Source: Puniceicoccaceae bacterium
Lineage (GTDB): Bacteria; Verrucomicrobiota; Verrucomicrobiia; Opitutales; JAFGAQ01
Direction of reading: 5' to 3'
Assembly: GCA_028285755.1 (NCBI GenBank)
Contig: JANQOQ010000004.1
Span: forward strand, 62,001 to 126,000
Length of the DNA: 64,000 nt
Of this stretch, positions 9,410 to 35,285 are shown piece after piece (the stretch's first letter is position 1; the number at the start of each line of letters is the position of its first letter). The notes beneath the pieces are model-generated. The model saw only the letters and a program-made list of their open reading frames with translations. It searched no databases and was not told the DNA's origin. The translations under genes and the position numbers were made by a program.

Positions 9410-9421
9410 ATAATAGCGCGC

Positions 9422-9976: not shown

Positions 9977-9991
9977 AATTTATAAAGAGCT

Positions 9992-12024: not shown

Positions 12025-12041
12025 ATTACCTGCAACGGTAT

Positions 12042-13640: not shown

Positions 13641-14097
13641 CGAGTTCTACCGTTACCTGAATTTCTACGGTCGCATTGACCGGGAGGCCGGCCACGGCAA
13701 TCGCCGCACGAGCATGTTTCCCCTTTTCGCCGAATACCTTGGCAAAGATCGCACTTGCCCCATTGATCACCTTCGGCGGTGAATCAAAGCCGGATACCGC
13801 ATTCACATAGCCTCCCATATAAACGATCTGCTTGACGCGCTCGAGGCTTCCAGCAGCAAGTTTAATCACCGAAAGCACATTCAGCGCGCAAATCTCAGCA
13901 GCTTTGTAACCACTTTCAATGGTCTGCTCCGCTCCGACCTGTCCCTGGTGAGTCATCTTGCCATTGAAAGTTGAGATGACGCCTGCCAGGTAGAGCATAT
14001 TGCCGACCTGTTTATACGGCAGATAATCACCTCCGGGAGCGGGTGGCTCTGGGAGTTCCAGCCCAAGCTCTTTAAGTTTGCTTTCGTAAATATCCAT
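13630..14097 (-). CDS. ridA: RidA/YjgF-family enamine/imine deaminase-like protein
   Basis: The protein is 155 residues, slightly longer than the classical 125-130-residue RidA because of an N-terminal helix, as in the YjgF-like subfamily often annotated TdcF/YjgH-like. Typical segments are GNMLYLAGVIS (about 32-42), EQTIESGYKAAEICALNVLS and VNATVEIQVTVE at the end. RidA proteins hydrolyse reactive enamine/imine intermediates; RutC of the pyrimidine pathway is a pathway-specific relative. It is the first gene of the RidA, cyclohydrolase-like and SIS operon, and overlaps the second by 11 bases. That suggests it clears an unstable aminoacrylate-like product made by its partner (inference). A sigma-54-like site lies just upstream. 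Confidence 0.88.
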   Translation of the reverse strand: MDIYESKLKELGLELPEPPAPGGDYLPYKQVGNMLYLAGVISTFNGKMTHQGQVGAEQTIESGYKAAEICALNVLSVIKLAAGSLERVKQIVYMGGYVNAVSGFDSPPKVINGASAIFAKVFGEKGKHARAAIAVAGLPVNATVEIQVTVELDGN

Positions 14098-18588: not shown

Positions 18589-19518
18589 TTAATCAAAGAT
18601 AGCCAATGGCAGATAACCCGTAATCGTCGTCTCCGGTTGATTCACGAGTTGGCTGACTTTGAGGTCGAGCACGACACTGCATAAAACGTAGGCCTGCTCT
18701 GCACTCAACCCGAGCTTTTGTCCTAAATAGTCGATTGCACGGCGCACCACTTGCTGGCATGCCACCCGGGGATCGGGGTTGGACTCGATGAATGCCTGCC
18801 AGGGCTTCGTCAGGTAGCGCGGGGGCACTAAAGTAGGCGGAACCACGGCTGCCGGCGGCTTGAAACCCACATCCTTCAAAAGCTCGATCTCAAAGGTTAC
18901 CGTCATGGGCGCCTCCATACCGTTGATGGATACTTCCCCATCTCCCTGAGCGCCATGGCAATCCCCTGAGCAAAGACCCGCGCCAGGAATCAATACCGGC
19001 AGGTAGAGCTCTGCTCCCGCAATCAGGTGCTTCACATCCATGTTGCCCCCCCAAACTCCGGGAGGACGTGTGCGGAACTCTCCCTCCTCAGCACGTTGCA
19101 CGCCGATAATTCCGCAGAAGGGGTGTAAATCCAGGGTAACCCCGGGCATTGACTTCGTTTGCTTCTCCTCTAGCACCCAATGATGCAGGAAGTGCTCTTT
19201 AAAGTCTTCAGGTAATAACCCAAGCCCGGGTATAATACTCGTCCATGCCCACCCTTCATGCTGATACTCCAATATCTTGATTTTGAGCTGGTCGCCGGGC
19301 ACAGCCCCGGCAATGGCCACAGGTCCCGTCAAAGAATGGATACGCGTTTTATCAATCTGGCTGAACTCCCCGGCGCTCATCCCGGGTTTTACCTGACCAT
19401 CCGAGGCATCCTTCATTTTAAGGGTTATGCGCTCACCCGATTCAATGGTTATCTGAGGTTCGTAGGTATTATCCCAACGATTGTAAGTAAGCGTACGGTC
19501 GAGAAAGTGTTCTTTCAT
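18589..19518 (-). CDS. Acetamidase/formamidase (FmdA/AmdA family)
   Basis: The 309-residue enzyme belongs to the FmdA_AmdA family, which hydrolyses formamide or acetamide to ammonia and the acid. The family signature is SGDCHGAQGDGEV at about residues 190-202, with HPFCGIIGV and GGNMDVKHL upstream. It is the last gene of the leftward arm of the catabolic cluster, and its ATG overlaps the creatininase stop (TAATG). As a terminal enzyme it would release ammonia from a one- or two-carbon amide produced when a ring is opened; formate-yielding steps are typical of purine-like and imidazole-like ring opening (inference). Confidence 0.92.
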   Translation of the reverse strand: MKEHFLDRTLTYNRWDNTYEPQITIESGERITLKMKDASDGQVKPGMSAGEFSQIDKTRIHSLTGPVAIAGAVPGDQLKIKILEYQHEGWAWTSIIPGLGLLPEDFKEHFLHHWVLEEKQTKSMPGVTLDLHPFCGIIGVQRAEEGEFRTRPPGVWGGNMDVKHLIAGAELYLPVLIPGAGLCSGDCHGAQGDGEVSINGMEAPMTVTFEIELLKDVGFKPPAAVVPPTLVPPRYLTKPWQAFIESNPDPRVACQQVVRRAIDYLGQKLGLSAEQAYVLCSVVLDLKVSQLVNQPETTITGYLPLAIFD

Positions 19519-20303
19519 TACTTGGAAATCTGTTTGTAGAATTCAGCGATCGCAATTGCCAGGCTTTTCCCGCCGGTTTGCAACCATTTCTCCCCATCTT
19601 CGGCATTTCCCAGAGTTGCATTGCCTACAACCCCGGTCGTTGAAAGATCCGAGCACATCCACGAAAAAATCGCGGGCGCGTCCTCGGGCTCCAATTCACC
19701 CGGGTCATTGACCCAGTCCGGGTATTCATTGGGTGCAAGCTCCATTTCAACGAGATCCGGCGTGAGCGCGAGAAGCCAGGAAGTCTCCGCCTGATTTGCA
19801 TGGAAACCATATGCCGCTTCCAGGGGATCCAGCTTCATTTCACAATTCATGCGCAAAACACCAGTAAACATACCGAACGTCGCATGAATTTCACGTAAAG
19901 TGGACCTTACGACCTGAATATTACCCCCGTGGGTATTAATAACGAGAAGACTGCGAAATCCCCAATCGCTCAACTGCCGGCCGATCACCAAGAGCTGACG
20001 ATACATCACCTTTTTATCAATCATCAGTGAACCGGGGAAGCCCGTATGCTCATTACTTTTCCCGACGATAATCGAGGGACCCACCAGGCAGGGAATTTCA
20101 TCAGGCAGATGCGGCATAGCGGTTTCCAACCAGGCCTGAGCCATCATGGCATCGACCCCCACTGGCAATTGAGGCCCGTGCTGCTCGATAGCACCCGTAG
20201 TTATCACAATGGGAGTATGTTCCTTATTGGGCAGGGCCTGGATTTGCTCAAGCGTATAGGCCCCGATCCAGCGCTTACGATAGTTGGGATGTTCGATACT
20301 CAT
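19518..20303 (-). CDS. Creatininase-family amidohydrolase, metal site intact
   Basis: A 261-residue member of the creatininase family, which opens cyclic amides or removes formyl groups using two metals. Metal ligands are present: Glu40 and His42 in AIEQHG, Asp51, His125 in NTHGGN, and Glu173 in HANQAETS. Family members include creatinine amidohydrolase, the FAPy deformylase ArfB and a dehydro-inosose hydrolase, so the substrate is not fixed by homology. It overlaps the upstream creatininase-like gene by 4 bases (ATGA) and the downstream formamidase by 1. It is likely the catalytic subunit of a pair with its divergent neighbour. Confidence 0.9.
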   Translation of the reverse strand: MSIEHPNYRKRWIGAYTLEQIQALPNKEHTPIVITTGAIEQHGPQLPVGVDAMMAQAWLETAMPHLPDEIPCLVGPSIIVGKSNEHTGFPGSLMIDKKVMYRQLLVIGRQLSDWGFRSLLVINTHGGNIQVVRSTLREIHATFGMFTGVLRMNCEMKLDPLEAAYGFHANQAETSWLLALTPDLVEMELAPNEYPDWVNDPGELEPEDAPAIFSWMCSDLSTTGVVGNATLGNAEDGEKWLQTGGKSLAIAIAEFYKQISK

Positions 20304-21037
20304 GGCCTTACCCCCTTTGGTTTAACCTCTATCGGAGCTTTGTTATAGATTTCCTGCGATAGCCGTATGAAATGATCGACCGCATCATCAAGCACTTCCT
20401 TCCCATCAAGGCCACTACCCCCAATGGGCTCTTTAACGTTCACATTCCAGTTCTGCAAAATCCCCGGGTGTTGAGTATTTGATTGGGATTCTGTGGATTG
20501 AGCTGGCGCTTCCCCAAATAGATGGCGTAGCACAGCATTGAGGCGGGCCCGATCCGCATCCGGATGGAAATTAAGTTGAAGCCCGCTCAGGTTCACACAA
20601 AACATTTGCAAATCCAGGGCAATTCTTAGGTCACGCCCTGTCGCATCAATGATATCTTCCATCCAGGGATTCGCATTAATAAAGACAATTTTCCTAAATC
20701 CCGAGGCTGCAATAGACTTACCCAAATCATGAAGGTAATCGTATGCCAGATCCAGGTTCACCGGAAAGGCCGTGCGCATATGCGGACCAGCAACCAATGA
20801 AGCAGGTGGCAGATATAACCAGGAAAGCTCGGTTGGTTTACGCTCCGAAGCCGCTTTCAACAACGACATGACCAGAACTTCTTCAGCATCCAGCGGGAAA
20901 CCCATACCCCAATCTGTCATACTGATTGTTGGCACATAAATCAGTGTTTTCTCTTTGTTTTCCCAGGAGTCGAACTGCGGCCATCGGTAATTAGGCCAAA
21001 ACGCATCCGGGTGTTGAATCGCTATGGAAGCTCTCAT
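20300..21037 (-). CDS. Creatininase homologue lacking metal ligands (probable pseudoenzyme)
   Basis: This 245-residue protein aligns along its length with the creatininase-like product of the next gene but has lost the active site. The EQHG motif is TDWG at residues 41-44, the metal aspartate region is altered, and NTHGGN is NANPWM at 121-126, so the metal histidine is Asn123. The hydrophobic core strands, for example GFRKIVFINAN, are kept. It is coupled by 4-base ATGA overlaps on both sides, to the amidohydrolase upstream and to the intact creatininase downstream, so equal production is likely. A regulatory or structural subunit of a mixed complex is a reasonable inference. Independent catalysis by another mechanism is possible. 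Confidence 0.72.
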   Translation of the reverse strand: MRASIAIQHPDAFWPNYRWPQFDSWENKEKTLIYVPTISMTDWGMGFPLDAEEVLVMSLLKAASERKPTELSWLYLPPASLVAGPHMRTAFPVNLDLAYDYLHDLGKSIAASGFRKIVFINANPWMEDIIDATGRDLRIALDLQMFCVNLSGLQLNFHPDADRARLNAVLRHLFGEAPAQSTESQSNTQHPGILQNWNVNVKEPIGGSGLDGKEVLDDAVDHFIRLSQEIYNKAPIEVKPKGVRP

Positions 21038-22254
21038 ATTTTAAATCGATCGTTTATAAAGATAGGCTTGCCCTCACGATAGGTGGCGAGTACTTCGCAG
21101 GGGGTCACCCGTGTGCAAATGCTGGCCAGCAGGTGACGGGTCGCTCTGAGGTGCGGAACAGTAAAGTCAAGCAATGTGAAATTAGCTGGTAAACCTTCTT
21201 CCAGGTAACCGGGGAAGCGATCGCCCAGCACCTTGCCAACATTGGATGTTGCCATTTTGAGAATCACTTCCGGCTCTGGATCGACGGCATTGCCATACTG
21301 ACTCTCTGTAATTTTGTAGGTATAATCCAGCTCAGCGAACATATTGGGTGAGTTGAGCATGCCGTTATCTGTACCCAGGAGCAAATTTACCCCTGCATCG
21401 ATGAGCTTCGCAATCGGTGGAATTGGTAAGCCCAAATTTGCATTCGCACGGGGATTCAGTACTGCGGTCACTTCATGATCCACCAGCATCTGAATCTCCT
21501 CATCATTAGCGACAGTCAGGTGAATAATGATGTGCGGATCGAGCAGATCGATTGCCCGCTCAAGATCTCCGCGGCCTGTGATTTCCAGGCTTACATCACG
21601 ATATCCATCGTTTTCCAGACAATGGATTGCCCGCATCTTTCCCATTTCCCGGGTTACTTTTTTGATTTTCAGCCAGGAGGCATCCGTGAGATCATTCATC
21701 GTGCTTTCACTGAACCCATCAGCAACTGCGAGCATTTCTTGTAACTCTGCAACAGCGTTCTCTGGAAGGGATTTCACATTTGCCCGCAATTCCTCATTGG
21801 TAAAGGGAGGATCCTTGAGCTGACCCAGGATAACGGAATCTACCCCACTCTGCCGGGAAGCCTCTCTCAAAATCTGAGAACCGATCACTCCCATTTCCCG
21901 AAAATCGATGTGAGCACTGGTTCCCGATTGAGCCATGTAGTCCAAGTGTGCTTTGACGTGAGGTAAAATGGATTCTCCCCGCTTAGAAAGTTCCCGGTAT
22001 TTATAACCGTTCGGCCTGAAAAAGCCCTCTTCCAGGGTCATACCCGTAGCCCCATCCGGCAGGCAACTGTCGCCCATGTGGGTATGCGAATTGCACATTG
22101 AAGGCATGACCACCACTGCACCTTCATCGATCTGTATCACCGGATCTTCCAGTTTTATTTCCTGGATCTTACTGTTCTCCCAAACGAACCGACTACAAAA
22201 GTGAGGTTTTAGCTCGCTACCATGCAGCACTATACAATCTTCAATCGTAGGCAT
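21034..22254 (-). CDS. ATZ/TRZ-type amidohydrolase (deaminase-like)
   Basis: The 406-residue protein is a metal-dependent amidohydrolase of the group that includes guanine, 8-oxoguanine and S-adenosylhomocysteine deaminases and s-triazine hydrolases. The HxH motif is NSHTHMGDS at about residues 56-64, later metal histidines are in AIHCLEND and IIHLTV, and the catalytic aspartate is in LLGTDNGML. It would deaminate or dechlorinate-type hydrolyse a nitrogen heterocycle in the cytoplasm. It sits between a DUF2165 membrane protein (14-base gap) and the creatininase pair (4-base overlap). It is the second ring-directed amidohydrolase in this operon, the other being cytosine-deaminase-like, which suggests two successive deamination steps. 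Confidence 0.85.
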   Translation of the reverse strand: MPTIEDCIVLHGSELKPHFCSRFVWENSKIQEIKLEDPVIQIDEGAVVVMPSMCNSHTHMGDSCLPDGATGMTLEEGFFRPNGYKYRELSKRGESILPHVKAHLDYMAQSGTSAHIDFREMGVIGSQILREASRQSGVDSVILGQLKDPPFTNEELRANVKSLPENAVAELQEMLAVADGFSESTMNDLTDASWLKIKKVTREMGKMRAIHCLENDGYRDVSLEITGRGDLERAIDLLDPHIIIHLTVANDEEIQMLVDHEVTAVLNPRANANLGLPIPPIAKLIDAGVNLLLGTDNGMLNSPNMFAELDYTYKITESQYGNAVDPEPEVILKMATSNVGKVLGDRFPGYLEEGLPANFTLLDFTVPHLRATRHLLASICTRVTPCEVLATYREGKPIFINDRFKI

Positions 22255-22268
22255 AGAAGGAAGGTAAT

Positions 22269-22775
22269 TTATGCTTCGGAGCTCTCAAGCTCGTCATCCT
22301 TCATGAAGATGAATATAAGAATGATGCCCATGACCACAAACATACGGTGCGCAGCATCCTGACCATTCCACTCTTCCGACTGCCACATCAGAAACCACTC
22401 GGCCCCTACCGTTAGAAATGCGATATACCATTGAAGCAAGCTCACCGTATGCCCAAACAGAGTAAAGGATTTTGCCTTTTGCCAGACTGCTGCAGCTGCA
22501 CTGCGTGCCTTGAATAACTTCCATGTGCCGATGCCGATGATCACACATGCAACCGCTTCCCAAATAATGATACCGGCATAGAAGAGATGATGGATTACCG
22601 GTGAGTCAACTGCCCGCCACATGGCTGCGTTGCCTTCAAACGTGGTGGTCATCCCCAGGACATTTTCAACAAAAAGCAGGTTAGACCCGTAATCCGTGAT
22701 ATTATTAAAGACTACCAATAGCAGGAAAAAAGCGGATGCTGCCGAGAGTAAGATTTTGCTATACCGTATAAGCAT
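22269..22775 (-). CDS. DUF2165-family small membrane protein
   Basis: A 168-residue inner-membrane protein with four predicted spans and the DUF2165 pattern: NITDYGSNLLFVENVLGMTT early and QWYIAFLTVGAEWFLMWQSEEWNGQ in the second half. The function of the family is unknown. The start coincides with the predicted transcription start of a strong sigma-54-like site at 22786-22801, so this gene seems to head its own transcription unit (DUF2165, amidohydrolase, creatininase pair, formamidase) within the larger leftward arm. Confidence 0.82.
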   Translation of the reverse strand: MLIRYSKILLSAASAFFLLLVVFNNITDYGSNLLFVENVLGMTTTFEGNAAMWRAVDSPVIHHLFYAGIIIWEAVACVIIGIGTWKLFKARSAAAAVWQKAKSFTLFGHTVSLLQWYIAFLTVGAEWFLMWQSEEWNGQDAAHRMFVVMGIILIFIFMKDDELESSEA

Positions 22776-22785
22776 ACGGCCTAAA

Positions 22786-22801
22786 AGCAGTTAGCTTGCC
22801 A
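22786..22801 (-). promoter_or_regulatory. Candidate internal sigma-54 promoter ahead of DUF2165
   Basis: The minus strand reads TGGCAAGCTAACTGCT. TGGCA and TGC are intact and GG-to-GC spacing is 12. It shares TGGCAAG with the site at 25997-26012. The -12 C is at 22787, so the transcript should start at about 22775, exactly the A of the ATG. The gap also holds the hairpin at 22834-22853. Confidence 0.6.
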
Positions 22802-22833
22802 AGACACCGTTTGAGCACTAATGTGAGCAGAGC

Positions 22834-22853
22834 AGGGAGTGTTAACACTCCCT
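22834..22853. other. Perfect 20-base palindrome after the cytosine-deaminase-like gene
   Basis: AGGGAGTGTTAACACTCCCT is self-complementary over its full length. As RNA it gives an 8-pair, GC-rich stem with a UUAA loop. It overlaps the TAG stop of the upstream gene (22852-22854) and lies 33 bases ahead of the internal sigma-54-like site. No U-run follows on either strand, so it is not a standard terminator. It may be an mRNA 3'-end stabiliser, a weak terminator or an operator. Confidence 0.6.
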
Positions 22854-24144
22854 AACTGAATAATGAATCCAGCTCCCGATAATCCGGCAGCTCAGGATTG
22901 CTGATATGCCCGCCCCGGATTATCTGCGGTTTCTGACTGGGTCGGCTCAACAATTCACTCCAATCTCTCGCCTGAAACAAAACAAAGTCCGCTTGGGTTC
23001 CCGTTTTGATCCTCCTATGCTTTTCAAGCCCCATAATGTCGGCAGCTGCCAAACCCACCATCGCTGCTGCGTTACTGTATTGAGTATCCAGGTGACCAAT
23101 GCGTATCAGCTGAACCATGACCTCGAATGGATTCAAATCACCGTAAGCATAAAAAGCATCCCGCACATTATCAGATGCCGCTGCTACCGGTATGCCCATC
23201 GCTAACATCTCCTGCACCAGGGTGATACCACGCCAATGTGGGGTGTGACGTGACTCTGCAGGAAGTCGCCGGTCCTGAAGATATAAATTACAAAGGGGCA
23301 AAGTTATGATCCGGATACCCGCTTGTTTAACAAGCTCAAGCGTCCTTTGGGCTTCCTCCCAGGGTTGGACTGCCAGGCTACAGCAATGCCCGCAGGTCAC
23401 CGGATATTCAAACTGGTTGCGCAAGACAGCCTCAGCAACTGCTTTTAGGCAGGCAGCTCCCGGATCTCCACTTTCATCCACATGCAAATCGATACCTACA
23501 CCCGCTTCACTTGCCATTGCCAATAACCGATCGAGCTGCTTGTCGAGCTCGGGATTGATCAAGGGCATCCCACCCAGGCAGGTTGCCCCATATTTAAGCG
23601 GTATATCCACAAATTCCTGACCATTGGGCTCGCTGTATTGATCTACCCCGCATAGGCTGACCAGTTGCAGCTCGATTTTGCCCTTCCAGGCCTCGCGAAG
23701 CCTGGAAAGGGTTGCAAAGCTGATTTCTGATTCGGCACCCCAGGTATCCACATGAGTGCGAATCGCTCCCACCCCGTGTGCCCAGGCACAGCGCATTGTA
23801 AAATCGGCACGCGCATACATTTCCTCCTCGGTCCAGTTAGCCTTGTCAGCCCCCAAAGTTTCGAGCGCGTCCTGGAATGTGTGATTTGGATTGGGAGCAC
23901 GGTTCCAGGTATGGCTTTTATCCAAATGCACATGGCTATCGACCCATGCAGGAAACAACATGCCACCGCGACAGTCGATTTCAGATTCCCATCCGAGAGT
24001 ATTGGGCTGCTCGCCGGTCTGCGCTATGCTGCTCACGAGGCCATCCTCAATCAATAGGTCAAAAGATATGAGCCCATTGATCTGATAATCCTGGATAACC
24101 AACTGCCCGGGAATGCGAGCGTCTCGAATGAGTGTCTTTGCCAT
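22852..24144 (-). CDS. Cytosine-deaminase-like amidohydrolase (CodA family)
   Basis: The 430-residue protein matches the CodA/AtzC group in length and motifs. Metal and substrate residues appear in order: HVHLDKS at about residues 70-76, IRTHVDTW, DLHVDES, GHCCSL and SDNVRDAFYAYGDLNPFEVM near the end, the last closely resembling the catalytic Asp region of CodA. The family deaminates cytosine, isocytosine or creatinine, or hydrolyses isopropylammelide; the K after HVHLD is seen in several catabolic relatives. It starts 3 bases after the binding-protein gene, consistent with uptake and processing of the same molecule. A cytosine- or creatinine-like ring is the best guess, not proven. Confidence 0.88.
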   Translation of the reverse strand: MAKTLIRDARIPGQLVIQDYQINGLISFDLLIEDGLVSSIAQTGEQPNTLGWESEIDCRGGMLFPAWVDSHVHLDKSHTWNRAPNPNHTFQDALETLGADKANWTEEEMYARADFTMRCAWAHGVGAIRTHVDTWGAESEISFATLSRLREAWKGKIELQLVSLCGVDQYSEPNGQEFVDIPLKYGATCLGGMPLINPELDKQLDRLLAMASEAGVGIDLHVDESGDPGAACLKAVAEAVLRNQFEYPVTCGHCCSLAVQPWEEAQRTLELVKQAGIRIITLPLCNLYLQDRRLPAESRHTPHWRGITLVQEMLAMGIPVAAASDNVRDAFYAYGDLNPFEVMVQLIRIGHLDTQYSNAAAMVGLAAADIMGLEKHRRIKTGTQADFVLFQARDWSELLSRPSQKPQIIRGGHISNPELPDYRELDSLFS

Positions 24145-24147: not shown

Positions 24148-25101
24148 CTACTCTTTAAAGCTCAACAGCTTATCCAGATCAGCCCCTTTGTCCAACACTC
24201 CATGCTTTAAGTAGAGGCTTTGCATATTATTCCAGACCTCAGGATCTACGGGGTTCATTACCGTTCCGTTGGGTCTAACGAGCTTCTCTATTTCCTTCAT
24301 CGAAGCCAATAGGTAATCTGCTGAAAACTCAGTGCCGTATCGCTCATGGATAAGCGCTACGGTCTCCTCCATATTGTCCATTGCGTAAATCCACCCCTGG
24401 CGACTGGCCTCTAGAAAAGCCCTAACTTTGTCAGGTTTCTGATTGACGATTTCAGCTGTTGTAAAGAATACCTGAGAGTAAGTGTCATAGCCATAGTCTT
24501 TCGCCAGCAAAACCCCGGCCTGGTTATTCGTTTTCAGCTGAAGGCGCACAAATTCATCGATCACATAGCATTGCATGGCATCGATCTCACCATCGATCAA
24601 TACATCCAGGCTGTAATTTATGGTTGGCAATGTAAAGTTTGCCAAATTCAGCCCATTCTTTGCACCAACCAGCGCAAGTATCTTTTCCCCATCCGGATGA
24701 ATACCCACACTGCGCCCTTCCAAATCCTTAATCGTCGTGATGCCACTTGATTTTAAATACATCCAGCCCATGGGATTTGCCTGGAACATGGCACCTACCA
24801 CCCGAAAAGGCGCACCTTCAATATAGGCTCGCATGATGATATTGCTCTCTGCACTTCCAAAAACCAGCCCCTCTTCAGCGAGGACTGCATCCACAGTCTT
24901 TTGATTGGGGTCCGCCTTACGAATGTCTACCTTGAAACCGGCATCGCCATAATAACCCTGAGCATCCGCCTGGTAAATACCCGCAAATTGGGCATTATAA
25001 ACCCAATCCAGCTGCATGACCACCGGCGTGAGTTTCTCTTTAGCAATCGAGAGTACCGGTAAGACCCAAAAAAAACCGAAAAAGGCAAAGTAGTATCTCA
25101 T
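24148..25101 (-). CDS. ABC-type NMT1/THI5-like periplasmic binding protein
   Basis: A 317-residue exported protein (Sec signal, about residues 1-19) of the NMT1/THI5-like family that binds thiamine-pyrimidine, nitrate/taurine-type or similar small ligands. Typical features are QLDWVYNAQFAGIYQADAQG near the start, SAESNIIMRAYIEGAPFRVV and DLEGRSVGIHPDG. The first part resembles ThiY-type pyrimidine binders. There is no lipobox, so it is soluble. No permease or ATPase lies in this arm; those are in the divergent arm at 29124-30748, which encodes a second binding protein of the same family. Two binding proteins therefore probably share one importer. Confidence 0.88.
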   Translation of the reverse strand: MRYYFAFFGFFWVLPVLSIAKEKLTPVVMQLDWVYNAQFAGIYQADAQGYYGDAGFKVDIRKADPNQKTVDAVLAEEGLVFGSAESNIIMRAYIEGAPFRVVGAMFQANPMGWMYLKSSGITTIKDLEGRSVGIHPDGEKILALVGAKNGLNLANFTLPTINYSLDVLIDGEIDAMQCYVIDEFVRLQLKTNNQAGVLLAKDYGYDTYSQVFFTTAEIVNQKPDKVRAFLEASRQGWIYAMDNMEETVALIHERYGTEFSADYLLASMKEIEKLVRPNGTVMNPVDPEVWNNMQSLYLKHGVLDKGADLDKLLSFKE

Positions 25102-25932: not shown

Positions 25933-25948
25933 AGCAACGGCAGTGCCA
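25933..25948 (-). promoter_or_regulatory. Candidate sigma-54 promoter of the leftward catabolic arm
   Basis: The minus strand reads TGGCACTGCCGTTGCT. Both boxes match consensus (TGGCAY and TTGCW), with one deviation at the seventh base, and GG-to-GC spacing is 12. The -12 C is at 25934, so the transcript should begin near 25922, next to the ATG at 25921. It faces away from a second strong site 48 bases to the right. Confidence 0.65.
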
Positions 25949-25996
25949 AATGGAAAATTGACGAATTTCTGCGCTTATTTTTTAGCTAAACTCAAC

Positions 25997-26012
25997 TGGC
26001 AAGAGGCTTGCT
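25997..26012 (+). promoter_or_regulatory. Candidate sigma-54 promoter of the rightward catabolic arm
   Basis: The plus strand reads TGGCAAGAGGCTTGCT. It differs from TGGCAYR-N4-TTGCW at one position, and spacing is exact. Predicted start is about 26023, one base before the ATG at 26024. With the site at 25933-25948 it forms a compact divergent sigma-54 control region. Confidence 0.65.
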
Positions 26013-26023
26013 TATGGGGGGCA

Positions 26024-27436
26024 ATGAAAAAAATAGAAGAATCCACTTTGGCGGATTTTGTGGAAGCTGTGGAAAGCATCGGAGCCAAAGTTATCACTGA
26101 AGACAACAAACTTGCGAAAATGTCTAAGGACTTTTACTGGTATTCGCCGGTTCTAAAGCGTTTACTGGAAGATAAGATCGCGGACATCGCTGTGCGCCCG
26201 AAAACCATTGATGAGCTTAAAAAAGTGGTCGGCTTTGCAGCAAAGTATTCGCTGCCCATTGTTATTCGCGGAGGCGCAACCGGAAATTACGGGCAAGTCA
26301 TTCCTATTCACGGGGGCCTCGTAATCGACACGAATGCGCTCACTAAGTTTGAAATTACCGAAGATGGAGTCGTTCGCGGCGAGCCCGGAGCGCGTATCGG
26401 TGCTATTGAAAAAGAAGCCCGTATGAAAGGCTGGGAAATGCGCTGCATCCCCTCTACTTTTGTCATATCTTCGCTAGCGGGCTTTCTGAGCGGAGGTTCG
26501 GGAGGCATAGGCTCAATCACTTATGGGGGAATCACATCCAACGATAATGTGAAATCGCTTACCCTTTTAACCGCTGAACCCGAGCCGAAGATAATTAAGC
26601 TCGAAGAGTCCGATTGTCTGACTGCCCTGCACACTTATGGAACGACCGGCATCGTCATCGAAGTCGAGATGCGTCTTGGGCCTGTGGTTCCCTACGAGGA
26701 GCTCATAATTATGCATGAGGATTGGGACACTCTGTTGGACTGGACCGACGGCATCGCGCGCGATGACAGCATTACCAAACGTCTCGTCACCATGTTCCAA
26801 AAGGAAATTCCGCCCTATTTTACCGCCATTGAGAAACATATTGGCGAAAATCCCGGCCACACGACCTTCCTTATTGTAGATAAGGCGCAATCTGAAGATA
26901 TCATAAAGTCCGCCGAATCAATCGGAGCTGTTATAAAGTACCGTAACGTCCTGCCTAATCCGCTCAAGCCCCCTTACATTACGGATTACACCTGGAATCA
27001 CACCACGCTGATGGCGCTCAAGGTGGACCCAAACATCACCTATCTGCAGGTGGGCTTTGCAAACCATTTTCGGGAACAGGTAAAAATGCTTTGGGAGAAA
27101 TTTCCCGGCGAAATCCTGTTCCATTTTGAATGGGTCAAGAGCAACTCCAAGATGGAGGATAAATCCTTTGAACAACGCAAACTCGAAGGCAGCAATGTCG
27201 TGGTAGGCAGCATCCCGCTCATTCATTTTAAGAGTGAAGAACGTCTACAGGAAATCATCGATTACAGTAATGAAATCGGCGTACCGGTGGCAAATCCACA
27301 TACCTACGTCCTCGAAGAAGGGGGGACTCATCCGGACATTGATGAGAAGGTAGCCCTCCGCGATAAAGTAGACCCCCAGGGATTACTCAATCCAGGGAAA
27401 ATGAAGAGTGCCCGTTGTAATCCTTTTGCCGCATAA
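26024..27436 (+). CDS. FAD-linked oxidase (GlcD/VAO fold)
   Basis: The 470-residue protein has the PCMH-type FAD-binding domain at its N-terminus: IAVRPKTIDELKKVV, then VIRGGATGNYGQVIP (about residues 84-98) contacting the FAD phosphate, and the GGSGGIGSITYGGI stretch. The cap domain follows, and the tail DPQGLLNPGKM is characteristic of the GlcD/D-2-hydroxyacid dehydrogenase group. I start at the ATG at 26024, preceded by a G-run; a longer frame from 25943 would run through the promoter. No signal peptide or CxxC was seen, so it is a soluble cytoplasmic flavoenzyme. It is first in an operon with a CocE-type hydrolase and an ABC importer. Substrate could be a hydroxyacid or the nitrogen compound itself. 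Confidence 0.88.
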   Translation: MKKIEESTLADFVEAVESIGAKVITEDNKLAKMSKDFYWYSPVLKRLLEDKIADIAVRPKTIDELKKVVGFAAKYSLPIVIRGGATGNYGQVIPIHGGLVIDTNALTKFEITEDGVVRGEPGARIGAIEKEARMKGWEMRCIPSTFVISSLAGFLSGGSGGIGSITYGGITSNDNVKSLTLLTAEPEPKIIKLEESDCLTALHTYGTTGIVIEVEMRLGPVVPYEELIIMHEDWDTLLDWTDGIARDDSITKRLVTMFQKEIPPYFTAIEKHIGENPGHTTFLIVDKAQSEDIIKSAESIGAVIKYRNVLPNPLKPPYITDYTWNHTTLMALKVDPNITYLQVGFANHFREQVKMLWEKFPGEILFHFEWVKSNSKMEDKSFEQRKLEGSNVVVGSIPLIHFKSEERLQEIIDYSNEIGVPVANPHTYVLEEGGTHPDIDEKVALRDKVDPQGLLNPGKMKSARCNPFAA

Positions 27437-27445: not shown

Positions 27446-29137
27446 ATGAATCTGGCTTCACTCGAAAACGCTATACCGGGTATTCACATCGAAACGGATG
27501 TGAAAGTGCCTATGCGTGATGGAGTGAAGCTGGCAGCCGATATCTACCGTCCCGAGTCCGAAACAACACTGCCCGTACTGCTGATGCGTCAGCCCTATGG
27601 CCGGGATATTGCATCGACGGTAGTCTACGCCCAGCCCATTTGGTTTGCGAAACAAGGTTACATCGTGGTGATCCAGGATGTGCGAGGCCGTGGAGATTCA
27701 GAGGGAGAGTTTTACCCTTTTCGTAATGAAACGCAAGACGGCTTCGATACGATCGAATGGGTGAGTCACCTGGAAGGTTCAAATGGTAAAGTGGGGATGT
27801 ATGGCTTCTCTTATCAGGCATCCACTCAGCTCTATGCAGCTCTGAGTGGGCATCCGGCACTAAAGGCGATAGCACCCCATATGACTGCTTTTGATTTATA
27901 CAGCGGATGGTTCTATCGGGCGGGTATGTTGCAACTGAACACAACCCTTGGCTGGGGGAATCAGATGCTGCGGGAGAATGTGAAACGCAGCGGACCCGGG
28001 GATTTATACAAAGCTCTTGAAAAATCCTGGGCCAATACAAATGCACTTACAAAGGCCTTTCCGATTTCGGAAGTGCAACCCCTAACAGACGAACGCGGAC
28101 CGACCTTTGTGAAAGACTGGTTGGAGCATGATGAATATGACGAATACTGGGAACAGTTCGATTTACTCAAGCAGCTCGATAAACTGGATATCCCTATGTT
28201 TCACCTCAGTGGTTGGTATGACTACTACCACCGGGGAAGCATAGCCGGGTATGAGGCCATGGCGGCTACTCACAAAAATCAATTGCTTTACGTAGGACCC
28301 TGGGTGCACATTCCCTGGGGTGACAATCTCTGTGGATGGAATTTCGGAGATTCTGCCAAAGTCGATATCAATGCCATAATGATCCGGTGGTTTGACCGGT
28401 GGCTCAAGGGTATAGATTCTGACACACCCATTGAAGGTGTGCACTATTTCTCAATGGGAGACAATCAATGGCATCATTATTCATCTTTGAGCGCCGACTC
28501 AGTTGCTGAAAAGACTTACTACCTGGGATCCCAGGGGAATGCTAACAGCCGCTTTGGAGATGGATTTTTAAGCGATGATCCGGAAGAGGAAGGTACGGAT
28601 ACCTATAACTACGATCCTGAAGTGCCGGTCCTCGCACCGGGTGGCGGTTTTGACGGAAGCCTCATCTGGGGGCCAAGCGATCTCAGGCAGAGTCAGTCAG
28701 GCAATAATCTATTGGTTTACACCAGCCAACCGTTGAGCAGTGAGATGAAAATAAGGGGTAAGCCGCAGTTGGAGCTTTTGGTGAGTTCTTCTGCAAGCAA
28801 TACCCTATTTGTAGCGAGACTCAGTGCTGTTCAAAGCAGCGGATCGGTTCGATTTTTGTGTCTGGGGGTGATCCAACTCAATGAAGGCGCAATCATGGGG
28901 GATGGTAAAACGCAAATCACGATCGAGCTCGATATGATCGCCTACACCTTTTCTCCGGATGAGTGTATTCGTTTAGATATCAGTAGCTCCGCATTTCCAC
29001 TGCTTGCGAGGCATCCGAACGGCCCATTGTCAGCAAATAAGCTAAACGGTCCTGAAGATTTTGACCGTGCTGTGCAGATCATCCACTACGACCTGGCTGC
29101 GCCATCCACACTAAAACTTTGTTATGTCGATTCATAA
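27446..29137 (+). CDS. CocE/NonD-family alpha/beta hydrolase
   Basis: A 563-residue enzyme of the X-Pro dipeptidyl-peptidase S15/CocE family. The N-terminal domain has VPMRDGVKLAADIYRP, then VIQDVRGRGDSEGEFYPF, and the nucleophile elbow GMYGFSYQAS at about residues 115-124 (Ser in G-F-S-Y). The C-terminal jelly-roll begins at LVYTSQPLSSEMKIRGKP. Family members cleave esters or amides of bulky acyl groups (cocaine esterase, cephalosporin acylase, nonactin hydrolase). There is no signal peptide. It starts 9 bases after the FAD oxidase and overlaps the ABC ATPase by 14 bases. It may remove a side chain from the imported compound (inference). Confidence 0.9.
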   Translation: MNLASLENAIPGIHIETDVKVPMRDGVKLAADIYRPESETTLPVLLMRQPYGRDIASTVVYAQPIWFAKQGYIVVIQDVRGRGDSEGEFYPFRNETQDGFDTIEWVSHLEGSNGKVGMYGFSYQASTQLYAALSGHPALKAIAPHMTAFDLYSGWFYRAGMLQLNTTLGWGNQMLRENVKRSGPGDLYKALEKSWANTNALTKAFPISEVQPLTDERGPTFVKDWLEHDEYDEYWEQFDLLKQLDKLDIPMFHLSGWYDYYHRGSIAGYEAMAATHKNQLLYVGPWVHIPWGDNLCGWNFGDSAKVDINAIMIRWFDRWLKGIDSDTPIEGVHYFSMGDNQWHHYSSLSADSVAEKTYYLGSQGNANSRFGDGFLSDDPEEEGTDTYNYDPEVPVLAPGGGFDGSLIWGPSDLRQSQSGNNLLVYTSQPLSSEMKIRGKPQLELLVSSSASNTLFVARLSAVQSSGSVRFLCLGVIQLNEGAIMGDGKTQITIELDMIAYTFSPDECIRLDISSSAFPLLARHPNGPLSANKLNGPEDFDRAVQIIHYDLAAPSTLKLCYVDS

Positions 29138-29912
29138 AAATCCACCATCCATACCCAGTGTCCTGTTCGAAGGCGTTCAAAAACGCTTTGGTAAAGGGCC
29201 GATCGTATTGGATAATATCAACGCATCTTTCCCACGCGGTAGTTTTGTGAGCTTCATTGGTCCCAGTGGATGCGGCAAATCCACTTTCCTAAAGCTGATT
29301 GCAGGACTGATTGATCCCACAGAAGGTAAAATAGAAGTGGAAGGCATGACGCCTGCAAATGCTCGCGAAGATCTGTTCTTTGTATTTCAGGATGCCAATT
29401 TGCTGCCCTGGCTGCGTGTCCGGGAAAATGTAGAGCTTCCCATGAAGATTCGCGGAGAATCCAAGAAAAGGATGCACGAGCAAGCCGAGAAGATGACCGA
29501 GCTGGTCGGCCTCAAAGACTCCTTGCGCAAGTATCCCTGGCAACTCTCCGGAGGCATGAAAATGCGGGTATCCATTGCACGAGCATTGAGTATCAAGCCC
29601 CACATCATGCTTCTCGATGAACCCTTTGGCGCACTCGATGAGATGACACGCGATAAGCTCAATGAGGATCTCTTGAAAATTCGTGAGGTCGACCCCTTTA
29701 CAGCCTTTTTTGTTACCCACTCTGTATCTGAAGCGGTATTCCTGTCCTCCCATATAGTGGTGCTTTCCAGCCATCCGGGGCGTATCGCAGAGATCATAGA
29801 AGTACCGTTTGATTATCCCAGAAGCGCAGAGATTCGAGAGTCCCAAAAATACCTGGAAATTCTGGCGCATACTGCCCACTCACTGCGTAGTGTAAAGGAG
29901 GAAGCAGCATGA
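29124..29912 (+). CDS. ABC transporter ATPase (SsuB/TauB/ThiZ-like)
   Basis: A 262-residue nucleotide-binding subunit. Walker A is GPSGCGKST (about residues 44-52), the Q-loop is FVFQDANLLPW, the signature is LSGGM rather than LSGGQ, and Walker B is IMLLDEPFGALD, followed by the H-loop FVTHSV. This fits the nitrate/sulfonate/thiamine-pyrimidine group of importers, which pairs with NMT1/THI5-type binding proteins as found here. The start overlaps the CocE stop by 14 bases, and the stop overlaps the permease start by 4 (ATGA). It energises uptake through the permease at 29909. Confidence 0.93.
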   Translation: MSIHKNPPSIPSVLFEGVQKRFGKGPIVLDNINASFPRGSFVSFIGPSGCGKSTFLKLIAGLIDPTEGKIEVEGMTPANAREDLFFVFQDANLLPWLRVRENVELPMKIRGESKKRMHEQAEKMTELVGLKDSLRKYPWQLSGGMKMRVSIARALSIKPHIMLLDEPFGALDEMTRDKLNEDLLKIREVDPFTAFFVTHSVSEAVFLSSHIVVLSSHPGRIAEIIEVPFDYPRSAEIRESQKYLEILAHTAHSLRSVKEEAA

Positions 29913-30748
29913 AGTATCTGAATAAGTCTCTCGCAGTTATTTTGCCGGTATTAGTCGGACTACTGTTTATCAGCATTGTTTATTTCATTGGTGGCAATAT
30001 AGAAGCCGAAAATCAGGAGGCCGGCCTCACTGAATCCCAGGCGAGTGGTATCCGCCGGATCATGCTACCCTACCCGGGTGAAGTTTTTACCGCTTTTAAG
30101 GAAGAATCAGCGATTATTCTCAATGGAGCCCGAAGCACATTAACCGCAGCGGTTCTTGGGTTTGTTTCTGCTGTAATCGGGGGTTACTTCATTGCACTCA
30201 TCATGTCTCCCTCTCGCTACCTTAAACAAAGCATATACCCCTGGGTCATGGTCCTGCAAATGACACCGATCGTAATTCTTGCACCCATTTTGTCCGTTTG
30301 GCTGAAAGAACCGCCGATGGGGCCCATTATTATGGTCACCTTTCTGATAGGATTTTTTCCCGTTTTGGCAAACTCGATGATGGGGCTGACTTCTGTTGAT
30401 AAAAACCTGGTCGACCTCTTTGAAGTATGTTCTGCCACCCGGATGCAGGAGTTAATCCATCTGCGTATTCCCAATTCGGTGCCATATCTGCTCACCGGCA
30501 TGAAAATAGCAGGAACGCTCGCACCTATCGGAGCGATTACCGGAGACATTTTCGTAGGTTCTGCGGATGCGGACCCCGGTCTGGGCTATTTGACAATACT
30601 CTTTAAACAAAGCGCCAAAACCCCGGCCTTATTTGCAACTGCGGGTACCGCATGCATCATGGGCTTCTTGTTTGTAGGCGTGGTAAATTTCATTCATTGG
30701 TATCTGCTGAAGAACTGGCATGATAGTATGGTAAACAAAAATAAATAG
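29909..30748 (+). CDS. ABC transporter permease (SsuC/TauC/ThiX-like)
   Basis: This 279-residue inner-membrane protein has about six spans and the BPD_transp_1 domain. The cytoplasmic coupling loop is seen around EVCSATRMQELIHLRIPNSVP (about residues 172-192), in the place of the EAA motif. A periplasmic stretch follows the first span (about residues 28-50). It overlaps the ATPase gene by 4 bases and is followed after 4 bases by the unusual binding protein/cytochrome lipoprotein. It would also serve the binding protein encoded at 24148. Confidence 0.92.
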   Translation: MKYLNKSLAVILPVLVGLLFISIVYFIGGNIEAENQEAGLTESQASGIRRIMLPYPGEVFTAFKEESAIILNGARSTLTAAVLGFVSAVIGGYFIALIMSPSRYLKQSIYPWVMVLQMTPIVILAPILSVWLKEPPMGPIIMVTFLIGFFPVLANSMMGLTSVDKNLVDLFEVCSATRMQELIHLRIPNSVPYLLTGMKIAGTLAPIGAITGDIFVGSADADPGLGYLTILFKQSAKTPALFATAGTACIMGFLFVGVVNFIHWYLLKNWHDSMVNKNK

Positions 30749-30752: not shown

Positions 30753-32534
30753 ATGCACAATATATATAAACACGTCTTACTTTGGGGAACGCTCGCTCTG
30801 ACACTCTGCACATTTTGGGTCGGCTGCGGTGGGGGAGCCGGCAGTGATGAATCGGAGGGTAAATTGTTTAAAATACGCATGCAGACGGACTGGTATGCCC
30901 AGGCAGAACACGGTGGCTTCTATCAGGCACTGGTTAATGGATACTATGAAGAAGAGGGGCTGGATGTCGAAATCATGCAAGGGGGGCCTAATACCACCCA
31001 AATTGAAAATGTAGCACTCGGAGTATTGAATTTCAGCATTGGACGCTCTGATGAAGTGCTCCTGCAGGCCAACCGCGAAGTTCCTATTGTAATTGTAGGG
31101 GCATTCATGCAGAAAGATCCTCAGGCGATCATGGCCCATAAATCCAGCGGTATCACCGAATTTGCAGATCTTGATGGTAAGGCGATCATGGCCATCCCCG
31201 GCAGCAATTGGATTGAGCTGCTAAAGCGTAAATTCTCTGTTGATTTCGGAGTCGTTCCCCTGGATTACGGCATGGATCGATTCTTAACTGACAAGAATTT
31301 TATCCAACAAATTTTCCTAACCAATGAGCCCTATTATGTGATGAAGGAAGGCGCAGACCCCGTCGTCTTGCCACTGTATGAGACCGGATTTGCTCCGTAC
31401 CGTGTATGGTATGCACGTAAAGACTTTGTTCTGAGAAATCCAGAAGTAGTTCGCGCATTCTCAAGAGCGACGATACGCGGATGGCAATCTTACATGACCG
31501 GGGATCGCACCAAGGCTAACGCTATGATCGAGAGTCAAAACCCGCGGATGGAAGATGAATTTATGAACTACAGCCATTCCCAAATGCTCAAGTATCAGCT
31601 CATTGATGGGTATGACGGTGATTGGGATACGGTGGGGGAAGTCGATCCGGCCCGGATACAGGAGCAGATCGATCAGCTAACGAGCATCGGGGTTATAGAC
31701 GAAGGATTAAGTGTGGACACGGTATTTATTTCAAGTGCAGTCCCGGAAGTCTTAAAAAAAAACAAGCCAGTTACTGAAGAAGCCGCAGGAGAGGATTCAT
31801 TGATCGTTCAATCCCTGGTAGGCGGCAATGAGGAAAGGAGCATCATTGAATATGAGACCCTGATTAATCACCCAGATATCAAAATATTCAATGACTACCT
31901 GGAAGACTCGGAAACCAAGCTTGAGCTGACTGGGCTATACCTGAAAGACTTCCTGGATTTTATTGGGCAGGACCCTGAATCCGTTGTCACCCTGGCAAAC
32001 TGCACTGATCTTTATCAGGCCAATTACGACCCGGACATCCTGGAAGCCTGTAAACCCTACATTGTATTGGAAGTTGAAGGCATTCCTACTCATCAATGGG
32101 CTGCAAATCGGGGAAACCCTGAATGGGGGCCCTATGTCATACTTGTGGAGGATGACAGCTCGCTCATTGATAAACCCAATAAGAAGCCCTGGGGAGTTAA
32201 CGAGTTGATCATTACCGATTTGGATAGCGGATTATGGCCGGATGCGATGTTGGCACTTAATGAGCAAAGTGAGATAATTGAATATGGACGCGCGCTTTAC
32301 GAAGGCTCATGCATCAATTGCCACGCCATCAACGACCCGCTAGGTGGCACACTTTCCAATCGAAATATCCAGATTATTGCCGTTCATGCAAAGTTCAATC
32401 GTCCATATTTTGAGGATGCTCTTATTAGGGCAAAAGAGCTGCTTCCTACTGCTGAAAAAATGCCTATATACTCTCATTACACCGATAAAGAGAAGGAAGC
32501 ATTGGTGGCATATTTATCTCAAATTAGTCAGTAG
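30753..32534 (+). CDS. Lipoprotein fusing NMT1-like binding protein, Moco-like domain and cytochrome c
   Basis: This 593-residue protein joins parts that are normally separate. A lipoprotein signal ends at WVGC (Cys near residue 27). Residues about 40-330 form an NMT1/THI5-type substrate-binding domain (MQTDWYAQAEHGGFYQALVNGYY, IGRSDEVLLQ). Residues about 380-500 (LTGLYLKDFLDFIG to KKPWGVNELIITDL) resemble the beta-rich fold of molybdopterin-binding oxidoreductase domains, though I cannot show that cofactor residues are kept. The last 80 residues are a class I cytochrome c with CINCH at 520-524 and a likely axial methionine in KMPIYSHY. It follows the permease by 4 bases with a good AGGAAG site. 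A membrane-tethered redox step at the point of substrate capture is the simplest reading (inference). Confidence 0.83.
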   Translation: MHNIYKHVLLWGTLALTLCTFWVGCGGGAGSDESEGKLFKIRMQTDWYAQAEHGGFYQALVNGYYEEEGLDVEIMQGGPNTTQIENVALGVLNFSIGRSDEVLLQANREVPIVIVGAFMQKDPQAIMAHKSSGITEFADLDGKAIMAIPGSNWIELLKRKFSVDFGVVPLDYGMDRFLTDKNFIQQIFLTNEPYYVMKEGADPVVLPLYETGFAPYRVWYARKDFVLRNPEVVRAFSRATIRGWQSYMTGDRTKANAMIESQNPRMEDEFMNYSHSQMLKYQLIDGYDGDWDTVGEVDPARIQEQIDQLTSIGVIDEGLSVDTVFISSAVPEVLKKNKPVTEEAAGEDSLIVQSLVGGNEERSIIEYETLINHPDIKIFNDYLEDSETKLELTGLYLKDFLDFIGQDPESVVTLANCTDLYQANYDPDILEACKPYIVLEVEGIPTHQWAANRGNPEWGPYVILVEDDSSLIDKPNKKPWGVNELIITDLDSGLWPDAMLALNEQSEIIEYGRALYEGSCINCHAINDPLGGTLSNRNIQIIAVHAKFNRPYFEDALIRAKELLPTAEKMPIYSHYTDKEKEALVAYLSQISQ

Positions 32535-32627
32535 TTGATCTATTGAGATTAACAATCCAGTCTTTGGCCTATTAATTTACAAAAAAAGCTGGATTAGACC
32601 CATTAATATGCAGACTTGAGGCACTTG

Positions 32628-32643
32628 TGGCATATTCTATGCA
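32628..32643 (+). promoter_or_regulatory. Candidate sigma-54 promoter of the second TonB receptor
   Basis: The plus strand reads TGGCATATTCTATGCA. It matches TGGCAYR-N4-TTGCW at all but one position with exact spacing, and it shares the unusual ATGCA -12 box with the promoter of the paralogous receptor at 2347-2362. Predicted start is about 32654, with a 34-base leader and a GGAAG ribosome site at 32676-32680. An AATCCAG...CTGGATT inverted repeat (32554-32560 and 32589-32595) lies upstream and could be an activator site. Confidence 0.6.
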
Positions 32644-32687
32644 TAATGTGCCCCCAACTATTACTAATGACTATTGGAAGAATCATT

Positions 32688-35285
32688 ATGAAAAGGGGAT
32701 TACACTATAAATTACTGGCATTATGCCTCGGTGCATTTATCTGCATATCAACCATTGCGCAGGACGCACCCATTGCCGAGTTGGAAGCCTTCATCTCAGA
32801 GGAAACCTCTGCTGAAGATACTGACTCGTTACTACCTACTGAACGCAGCATTGATTCTGTCTTTTTTGCTGACATGTCGATCCTTGAGACTCCGCGCTCG
32901 GTATTGACGATCAGCCCGGAGACTATGAAGCAGTTCCAGATCAAGAACTTCGATGATCTGGCAAAAATCGGTGCGGGAACCGAGCGTGTCAACTTCTACG
33001 GTATTGCCGGTGCTCCGGTGATTCGCGGTTGGCAGGGCGGCACTTACTTCAACGGAATGCAACGTGCCTTCCAACGAAATGAAATGCCCACTTCATTCGG
33101 TTCTTTGGATGCGCTGAATATCATTAAAGGTCCGGCACCAGCACAGTATTCACCTTCACACGTCGGGGGTTACGCAAATATGATTCCAAAGTCACCTTAC
33201 TTCGATGAGTTTCGCGGTTCTGTGAAGCTGGAAGTGGGCTCGTGGAGTTACTTCAATGTGCAGGCAGACGTGGGTGAACCTACCTTGATCTTTGGCCTGC
33301 CTTCTGCGTATCGTATCTCAATTACTGCACAGCAGTCTGAATCTTTCTACGATCGTATCAATAATGATTACTTCTCTATCTATGGTGCCATTAAAACGCG
33401 TGTAAGTGACACCATTCGTATCTTTACCGGTGCTGAGTATTTCCAGTTTAAATCCAATGAAAATGCGGGCTGGAACCGTCCTTCTCAGAACCTGATTGAT
33501 AATGGCGAATACGTAATTGGTGAGCCGCTTAGCTTAGTCCGCGCAAGTAACGGAGGGGTTGCCGAGCGGGGTATCATTGATGGGTTGACCTTTGATTTCG
33601 GCGGCATACCCGCTGAAAACCGTCCCCTTTTCCGCGCGCTGGTAGTTCCTGAGGCTGTTGTAGACACTTCAGGTATTAGTGATGATCTAAAATCACTGCT
33701 TGTGGATATGTCGGACTCAGCGACACGTGATCTTGTATATACTGGTACACCCGACGATATCGCACGCACGACTTCCGGTTATGTTTACACACCTGAGTAC
33801 TTTCAGGCAGGCGGAACCGTGTTTACGACTCCTATTGACGCAAGCACGGTCCTCTCTGACGATGCAGACTTTGCGGACTCCTTGGACTTCATCTACTTCT
33901 TCGATATTATTGGTACACCGAGCGAGGACTTTACCTGGACCAACAAATTCTTCTTCGAGTATCTGGAAACCCGTAAATTGTCATCCTACGGTTACGGTTT
34001 TGACAGTGACCAAATGGTTATCGCAGATCGTCTGATTTTCACCAATGATCTCGAACTCGGCGGCATCCAGGTAGATCTCGGCTATGGCGCAGAACTTCGC
34101 TACAGTGAGGCGCTACAGCTTCAGGATTTCTGGACTGAACCATTTGCCCGTCGTGACATCTCAACCGGATTCATAAGTGCTAATTCGGTAATTTTAGCAG
34201 GCCCTCAGGTCGATCCCAATACGGGTAACAATTACTGGGGTGGCGGATTTGGCGCAGGTGGCCCGGGCGGCCATGCTGCTAAGTCAGAGCTCCTTCAGGG
34301 AGGACTCTTTGCTTACGGTGACGTAGAATTCAGTGATATGTTTTCTGTATTGTTTGGTCTTCGCCAGGAGTTTGCTGATTACGAGACAGTGGTACCCGAT
34401 CAACCCACTGACATTGCAGATGCTGAAGTGGAGGGTGACATCGACTTCTTTAACTGGAGCATTAACCCAGTGCTGAAACTTACGGATGAGGTCTCTCTTT
34501 ACGGTGCATACCAGGAAGCGACTACGATAGTGCCCACACAAGGGGGTGCGATTCTGGGTGACGGCAACTTCGGGGATGCTGAACTCATCGAGTATGGTGC
34601 TAAGTTTTCTTTGATCGAGGATACCCTCTTCGCGAGTGTTGCTTACTACGAGTGGGAGCAAACCAGCTTCTCAGATCGTGAAGCCACTTCCGACCAGTTT
34701 GAGTCAGAAGGTTTCGAAGTAGAAATGACCTGGAAACCCACCGATAGTTTCACACTGATCGCATCCTTTGATGATCGTGAAACCAAGAAAGTATCTGATC
34801 TGAATTTCCGTACCGTGCCCTTCTCTTTGATGGATCCGACCGGTGCGGGTAACGAAGAGATAGGTATAGCACTTGAGTCCGGCATCCTTGGCAGTCAATT
34901 TTCTGCTGCAGTCGGTGGGTTTACACCCGAAGGAGGAAGCCCTTCAGGTAACCCGGATCAGATCGTTCCCGGATTTCCTGAGACTACTCTCAAGCTATTC
35001 GGTATCTACGAATTTGACAACGGTTTTGGCGTGTCCGGGGGTGCAAGCTTCCGCAGCGACTACTATCACAACTACGACCGCACACTCCTCATCGATGAGA
35101 GCACGATCGTAAATGCGAACATATTCTACAAAGCCGAAAAGTATGAAGTGATCATCTCCGTAGAAAATCTTACCGGAGAAGACTACTTCGTAGGGTCAGA
35201 CCCTGAGTTTGCAGCAAACACACTCATAACCAAGGCACCGGATGAGCCGGAGTTCCGCCTGACTTTCACCTATTTCTTCGATTAA
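32688..35285 (+). CDS. TonB-dependent outer-membrane receptor
   Basis: The 865-residue product starts at the ATG at 32688 (MKRGLHYKLLALC...), with GGAAG upstream; an upstream in-frame TTG lies inside the promoter region. After the Sec signal comes the acidic segment ELEAFISEE...LLPTERSI and SILETPR, nearly the same as in the receptor at 1-2280. The plug has ALNIIKGPAPAQYSPS and the barrel ends in FRLTFTYFFD with the C-terminal aromatic residue required for outer-membrane insertion. It closes the rightward catabolic arm and would import that arm's substrate. A strong bidirectional terminator follows. Confidence 0.93.
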   Translation: MKRGLHYKLLALCLGAFICISTIAQDAPIAELEAFISEETSAEDTDSLLPTERSIDSVFFADMSILETPRSVLTISPETMKQFQIKNFDDLAKIGAGTERVNFYGIAGAPVIRGWQGGTYFNGMQRAFQRNEMPTSFGSLDALNIIKGPAPAQYSPSHVGGYANMIPKSPYFDEFRGSVKLEVGSWSYFNVQADVGEPTLIFGLPSAYRISITAQQSESFYDRINNDYFSIYGAIKTRVSDTIRIFTGAEYFQFKSNENAGWNRPSQNLIDNGEYVIGEPLSLVRASNGGVAERGIIDGLTFDFGGIPAENRPLFRALVVPEAVVDTSGISDDLKSLLVDMSDSATRDLVYTGTPDDIARTTSGYVYTPEYFQAGGTVFTTPIDASTVLSDDADFADSLDFIYFFDIIGTPSEDFTWTNKFFFEYLETRKLSSYGYGFDSDQMVIADRLIFTNDLELGGIQVDLGYGAELRYSEALQLQDFWTEPFARRDISTGFISANSVILAGPQVDPNTGNNYWGGGFGAGGPGGHAAKSELLQGGLFAYGDVEFSDMFSVLFGLRQEFADYETVVPDQPTDIADAEVEGDIDFFNWSINPVLKLTDEVSLYGAYQEATTIVPTQGGAILGDGNFGDAELIEYGAKFSLIEDTLFASVAYYEWEQTSFSDREATSDQFESEGFEVEMTWKPTDSFTLIASFDDRETKKVSDLNFRTVPFSLMDPTGAGNEEIGIALESGILGSQFSAAVGGFTPEGGSPSGNPDQIVPGFPETTLKLFGIYEFDNGFGVSGGASFRSDYYHNYDRTLLIDESTIVNANIFYKAEKYEVIISVENLTGEDYFVGSDPEFAANTLITKAPDEPEFRLTFTYFFD

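Follow-up and report, generated by a model that had tools for sequence, protein, structure and literature searches.

The locus described here raises the question of why the binding protein of an ABC importer should carry a cytochrome c in the same chain. The initial annotation of the window (the whole stretch of 64,000 nucleotides that was analysed) had stated that binding proteins are not normally redox proteins, and this holds as a rule; to our knowledge, however, a single precedent for a fusion between a binding protein and a cytochrome is known, namely the XoxG/XoxJ fusion, or cytochrome cGJ. The binding-domain family of the present protein (NMT1-type) presumably differs from that of cGJ. 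This exception to the rule comes from Methylacidiphilum (Verrucomicrobia), in which a binding-protein-type domain and a c-type cytochrome are present in one periplasmic chain, the cytochrome accepts electrons from the methanol dehydrogenase XoxF, and XoxJ has been proposed to activate that enzyme (PMC8170126). A literature search for binding protein-cytochrome fusions or for the cytochrome family discussed below returned nothing relevant besides XoxG/J.

Domain composition and gene neighbourhood of the fusion protein

The open reading frame at positions 30753-32534 of the forward strand is one uninterrupted gene of 593 codons without an internal stop, and it encodes a predicted lipoprotein of 593 aa in which a binding protein, a sulfite oxidase (SUOX)-like domain and a cytochrome c follow one another. 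The three-part architecture in one gene claimed by the initial annotation is thus confirmed, both by this single frame and by the occurrence of the same fusion in five other genomes. At the N-terminus, a putative signal peptide can be read from the sequence (30753-30827, +), in which a hydrophobic stretch is followed by WVGC (residues 22-25), a non-canonical but plausible motif that is probably the lipobox; fused relatives carry LVAC, FTAC, VSGC or ATGC at this position. Residues ~38-335 (30864-31757, +) form an NMT1/THI5-type solute-binding domain, for which Pfam NMT1 (PF09084) matched residues 51-248 with an E-value of 1.7e-31 and 110.3 bits against a gathering cut-off of 20.5. The closest solved relatives of this domain are PDB 4nmy, an ABC extracellular solute-binding protein (E 4e-14), and PDB 3ix1, a formyl-aminopyrimidine-binding protein of the ThiY type (E 1e-12). 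The N-terminal 300 residues of the fusion protein are those that resemble the ThiY/THI5/SsuA-TauA group; the listed solved members match the binding domain only, and the domain scored below every specific NCBIfam cut-off.

At the other end of the chain, residues ~503-592 (32259-32528, +) form a mono-haem class I cytochrome c domain with matches to Pfam Cytochrom_C and Cytochrome_CBB3 (Cytochrom_C, PF00034: 24.2 bits over residues 510-591, the cut-off being 21.3). The haem-binding motif CINCH (residues 520-524; 32310-32324, +) was read from the sequence; its two Cys and its His are invariant in the alignment of relatives, as is Met570 (32460-32462, +), the probable distal haem ligand (C181, C184, H185 and M231 in the numbering of alignment A1). 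The CxxCH motif, the putative distal Met and the Pfam match together identify a class I cytochrome c, and haem is predicted to be attached at CINCH.

The gene lies within an importer operon. The ATPase gene (29124-29912, +; Pfam ABC_tran) is overlapped by the permease gene (29909-30748, +; Pfam BPD_transp_1), and the fusion gene starts 4 bp behind the latter, in agreement with the earlier claim that it lies directly behind the permease. The binding domain is therefore encoded together with an ABC permease and ATPase, as for NMT1/THI5-like binding proteins. A TonB-dependent outer-membrane receptor (32616-35285, +; Pfam Plug, TIGR01783) follows, and synteny analysis placed an orthologue of it near most of the genes that encode the module of middle domain and cytochrome c. 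Upstream of the ATPase gene, profile matches and synteny identified a CocE/NonD-family hydrolase of the same operon (27446-29137, +) and, before it, an FAD_binding_4 dehydrogenase with no evident signal peptide (25943-27436, +), which is conserved in the cluster and close to the solved protein PDB 6v42 (E 7e-85), on which no paper was found. The reverse strand carries, as judged from domain scans and synteny, a second NMT1-type binding protein without a cytochrome in a divergent operon (24148-25101, -), and a group of genes at 18589-24144 (-) for a formamidase, two creatininase-family proteins, two amidohydrolases, one of which scored above the cytosine deaminase cut-off, and a DUF2165 protein; most of this group recurs in related clusters. 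Scanning of the genes around the fusion gene revealed no quinoprotein, and the clusters that were compared gave neither a conserved periplasmic dehydrogenase nor any other evident source of electrons.

A block of purine and nucleobase genes (2422-14097 of the window) adjoins the importer cluster. Its enzymes comprise an adenine deaminase, an adenosine-deaminase-type protein, a phosphoribosyltransferase, a nucleosidase-type protein, a long GTP cyclohydrolase II-like protein and a YjgF protein, while its transport proteins comprise a xanthine/uracil-type permease, a NUP purine nucleoside permease and a Vut_1 transporter. This block could be a nucleobase ring-opening pathway. No riboswitch for thiamine or another cofactor was found in 14-40 kb of the window, and two long reading frames, at 10978-12024 (348 aa) and 49945-52212 (755 aa), gave no Pfam match at the thresholds used.

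The middle domain and the molybdenum site

The beta-rich domain that joins the two ends (residues ~346-492; 31788-32228, +) was recognised by the initial annotation as resembling the sulfite-oxidase fold. The Pfam scan of the fusion protein gave no match between NMT1 and cytochrome c, and the domain matched no Pfam oxidoreductase, not even PF00174 (Oxidored_molyb) at an E-value of 10. In a profile comparison by hhalign, 14 middle domains aligned to 15 PF00174 domains taken from related genomes with a probability of 84% and a score of 40.6, and the probability was 85% with 29 sequences and 91-93% when four proteobacterial relatives were added. In the controls, 12 unrelated decoy families reached at most 0.7%, 200 column shuffles at most 5.4% (score at most 23.2), and the reversed alignment 0.4% (reversed profile, score 15.4). 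The proteobacterial family by itself reached 1%, with too few sequences for the comparison; it added signal only when pooled. A single-sequence AlphaFold2 model of residues 340-593 had a pLDDT of 37, a value of no confidence at which no fold is readable. With probabilities of 84-93% and negative controls, the resemblance noted earlier is upheld at the level of profiles, and the sulfite-oxidase (Oxidored_molyb) fold is the probable origin of the middle domain, well supported by these comparisons though short of structural proof.

The same annotation called the middle domain Moco-like, but that it is a molybdenum cofactor (Moco) oxidoreductase is not supported, for two reasons. First, the single Cys conserved in 15 of 15 PF00174 domains, which ligates molybdenum, aligns to Asp385 of the fusion protein; in 29 related modules, the residues common at this column do not include Cys. 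Second, the host genome (97% complete) gave no match to MoaC and none to PF00174, whereas the MoaC search was positive in 11 of 14 control genomes, which suggests that the host is an organism without molybdenum cofactor. Because the Mo-ligating Cys is missing and neither MoaC nor a PF00174 protein was found in the host, it is very unlikely that the middle domain is a molybdoenzyme, and we rejected this reading. Compared with the sulfite oxidase family and with SorAB and SoxCD, the domain shows a probable fold relationship but differs in its lack of the Mo-ligating Cys and in a host without a match for Moco synthesis. Two other positions are strongly conserved among the 29 modules, Cys417 in 27 and Asp419 in all 29 (32001-32009, +). 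A molybdenum-enzyme fold appears to be in use without its molybdenum site, in a host with no sign of making the cofactor.

Distribution of the tail and its link to the importer

To follow the middle domain and cytochrome c as a unit, hereafter the tail, residues 328-593 were used as the query against 132 related genomes. The tail was found in 12 of them, and five (G064, G034, G049, G033 and G063) contain the same three-part chain, so the fusion sought elsewhere is known from six genomes of three families in total, one of these genomes being a single contig. Other members of the order make the tail as a secreted protein in its own right, about 270-330 residues long, whose gene usually lies beside those of NMT1 binding proteins and TonB receptors. 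In a larger draw, 23 of 373 genomes of the order possessed the tail, and in draws from the class and the phylum it was rare and scattered. Fused and separate forms are both present in G034, and in G033 the fused gene is closely followed by a separate copy.

In a tree built from 33 tails, including four proteobacterial outgroup rows, the six fused tails fell in one group of eleven, where they were intermixed with separate tails. The label of fused or separate requires four changes on this tree, three of them forced by well-supported branches, and a single fused clade was rejected. These data would fit repeated fusion as well as a single event followed by splits and duplications, and the occurrence of fused and split versions in related genomes provides a natural experiment on the role of the link. 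In several genomes a second, divergent tail gene occurs (L098, L099, L166:16912 and L174:18414), and these genes, in which the HKxPWG segment is absent, group in a well-supported clade of their own. At two further loci (L106:11071-15064 and L107:2666-6650), three NMT1 binding-protein genes stand in tandem and the last one is fused to a tail, an arrangement suggestive of successive duplications and a fusion inside a single operon.

The association of the tail with the importer was evaluated by co-occurrence and synteny, with counts drawn from related genomes. Of the 132 genomes, the 12 with a tail all encode a protein closely related to the binding domain, compared with 28 of the 120 without a tail (Fisher p 1.6e-7, relatedness of the genomes not being corrected for). 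Around most tails the same genes recur, those for transport encoding NMT1 binding proteins, ATPase and permease, and a TonB receptor, and the others an FAD_binding_4 dehydrogenase, a CocE/NonD hydrolase, a creatininase-family pair, amidohydrolases and DUF2165; L113 and some contig ends lack these neighbours. Two genes that occur joined in one genome and apart in another as a rule work together, which supports a tie between importer and cytochrome. Since binding proteins without a tail exist in those 28 genomes and as a paralogue in the same genome as the fusion (L115), uptake in itself does not depend on the tail. The L115 set (G000:C2:350000-369999) consists of two reading frames, then a gene for an NMT1 binding protein of 321 aa without a tail, and then a reading frame of 872 aa at the position that the TonB receptor has in the importer cluster. 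A search of genome contigs, dominated by the binding domain, returned 80 loci, nearly all proteobacterial and mostly from Caulobacterales, and no tail lay within their flanks.

More distant relatives of the tail were sought with a probe that approximated a consensus of the cytochrome family, and the sequences analysed afterwards were the real records found with it. The probe matched 15 plasmid-borne proteobacterial proteins with the same two domains (for example WP_033700637, WP_099514851 and WP_059909355), annotated, where at all, as 'cytochrome c', and their database records give no function. These proteins align to the tail over its full length (hhalign 98.6%, 230 columns) and to the middle domain alone (92.6%), and they also conserve Asp419. 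However, they have Ala in place of Cys417, and in the annotated loci that were read they are separate proteins not linked to NMT1 importers. Judged from these alignments, the tail branches off, with much divergence, from a larger family of two-domain cytochromes that is apparently uncharacterised, and is here joined to an importer, so that a family named only 'cytochrome c' in databases is now given a genomic context. Scans of viral contigs found two loci, both of the proteobacterial family.

Possible roles of the fusion

What recurs in these genomes is a physical link between the capture protein of an ABC importer and a periplasmic electron carrier, and it is probable, as far as gene content can tell, that nutrient capture and respiration are physically linked in these bacteria. 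The reading that we tentatively favour, without holding it to be probable in all its parts, is that of an importer-tethered electron-transfer protein in an uptake island for nucleobases or N-heterocycles. A membrane-anchored periplasmic protein would then tie substrate capture by the ABC importer to a small electron-transfer protein. As expected from the protein families, a nucleobase-like N-heterocycle would enter via the TonB receptor, and the NMT1 domain would take it and hand it to the permease. The middle domain would have kept the sulfite-oxidase fold without the molybdenum site and would most likely serve as a docking or ligand-contact platform beside the haem. The cytochrome c domain would take single electrons, most likely released when the captured compound or something closely derived from it is oxidised, and pass them towards one of the haem-copper oxidases. 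The host genome encodes proteins for cytochrome c assembly and has three genes for subunit I of haem-copper oxidases, so that a periplasmic cytochrome, once reduced, would be able to pass its electrons on. The content of the cluster and the neighbouring purine and nucleobase genes make an N-heterocyclic, nucleobase-like compound the natural guess for the cargo; which way the electrons flow and what donates them is likewise what we infer from this setting.

It is possible, but unlikely, that the tail would instead be the acceptor for a separate periplasmic enzyme encoded elsewhere, with the binding domain as a scaffold or assembly factor, a role like that proposed for XoxJ, rather than as the cargo carrier of the importer. 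The gene for such a donor could well be located outside the cluster, and the XoxG/XoxJ system, in which XoxF donates electrons and XoxJ is the proposed activator, offers a precedent (PMC8170126). However, the order of ABC ATPase/permease, fusion gene and TonB receptor, which is kept in relatives, is that expected of a working importer, and no quinoprotein was recognised in the cluster. The likeness to cGJ is one of architecture, a single chain that holds a binding-protein-like domain together with a cytochrome c; unlike cGJ, which works with XoxF, the present protein has an extra sulfite-oxidase-like domain and an ABC/TonB importer operon. Because this defining partner was not found among the genes scanned around it, the fusion protein is not assigned to the cGJ family.

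A bolder idea, and a doubtful one, is that the binding protein oxidises its cargo during capture. The NMT1 domain would press a redox-active N-heterocycle, such as a derivative of purine or a reduced pterin, onto the tail with its SUOX-like domain and cytochrome, and electrons would go to the respiratory chain before import; if true, this would be a respiratory, oxidising ABC importer built on a Moco-free sulfite-oxidase fold, with Cys417 and Asp419 perhaps in a new site. We consider it distinctly improbable that the cytochrome domain reduces (or oxidises) a metal bound to the imported compound, so that this is released or loaded at the binding protein. A single haem is capable of one-electron metal reduction, and siderophore receptors (TIGR01783) are what the TonB receptor resembles most, but it scored far below the cut-off for these (95 versus 223.5 bits), and the enzymes encoded nearby hydrolyse or deaminate N-heterocycles. 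Redox gating, by which the state of the haem would alter the conformation of the binding domain and so control delivery to the permease, would be permitted by the physical fusion of both domains, but with the tail a separate protein in several genomes it is very unlikely. That the middle domain oxidises the ligand with Moco and feeds the cytochrome, like a one-chain sulfite dehydrogenase, is hardly credible given the lost Cys and the host's gene content, even though the fold and the partner cytochrome recall the heterodimeric sulfite and sulfane dehydrogenases (SorAB, SoxCD), which pair with cytochrome c. Finally, the chance of a sequencing or assembly artefact is negligible, being refuted by the independent copies of the same architecture. 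As a separate observation, the substrate of the flavin dehydrogenase encoded upstream could identify the cargo of the importer.
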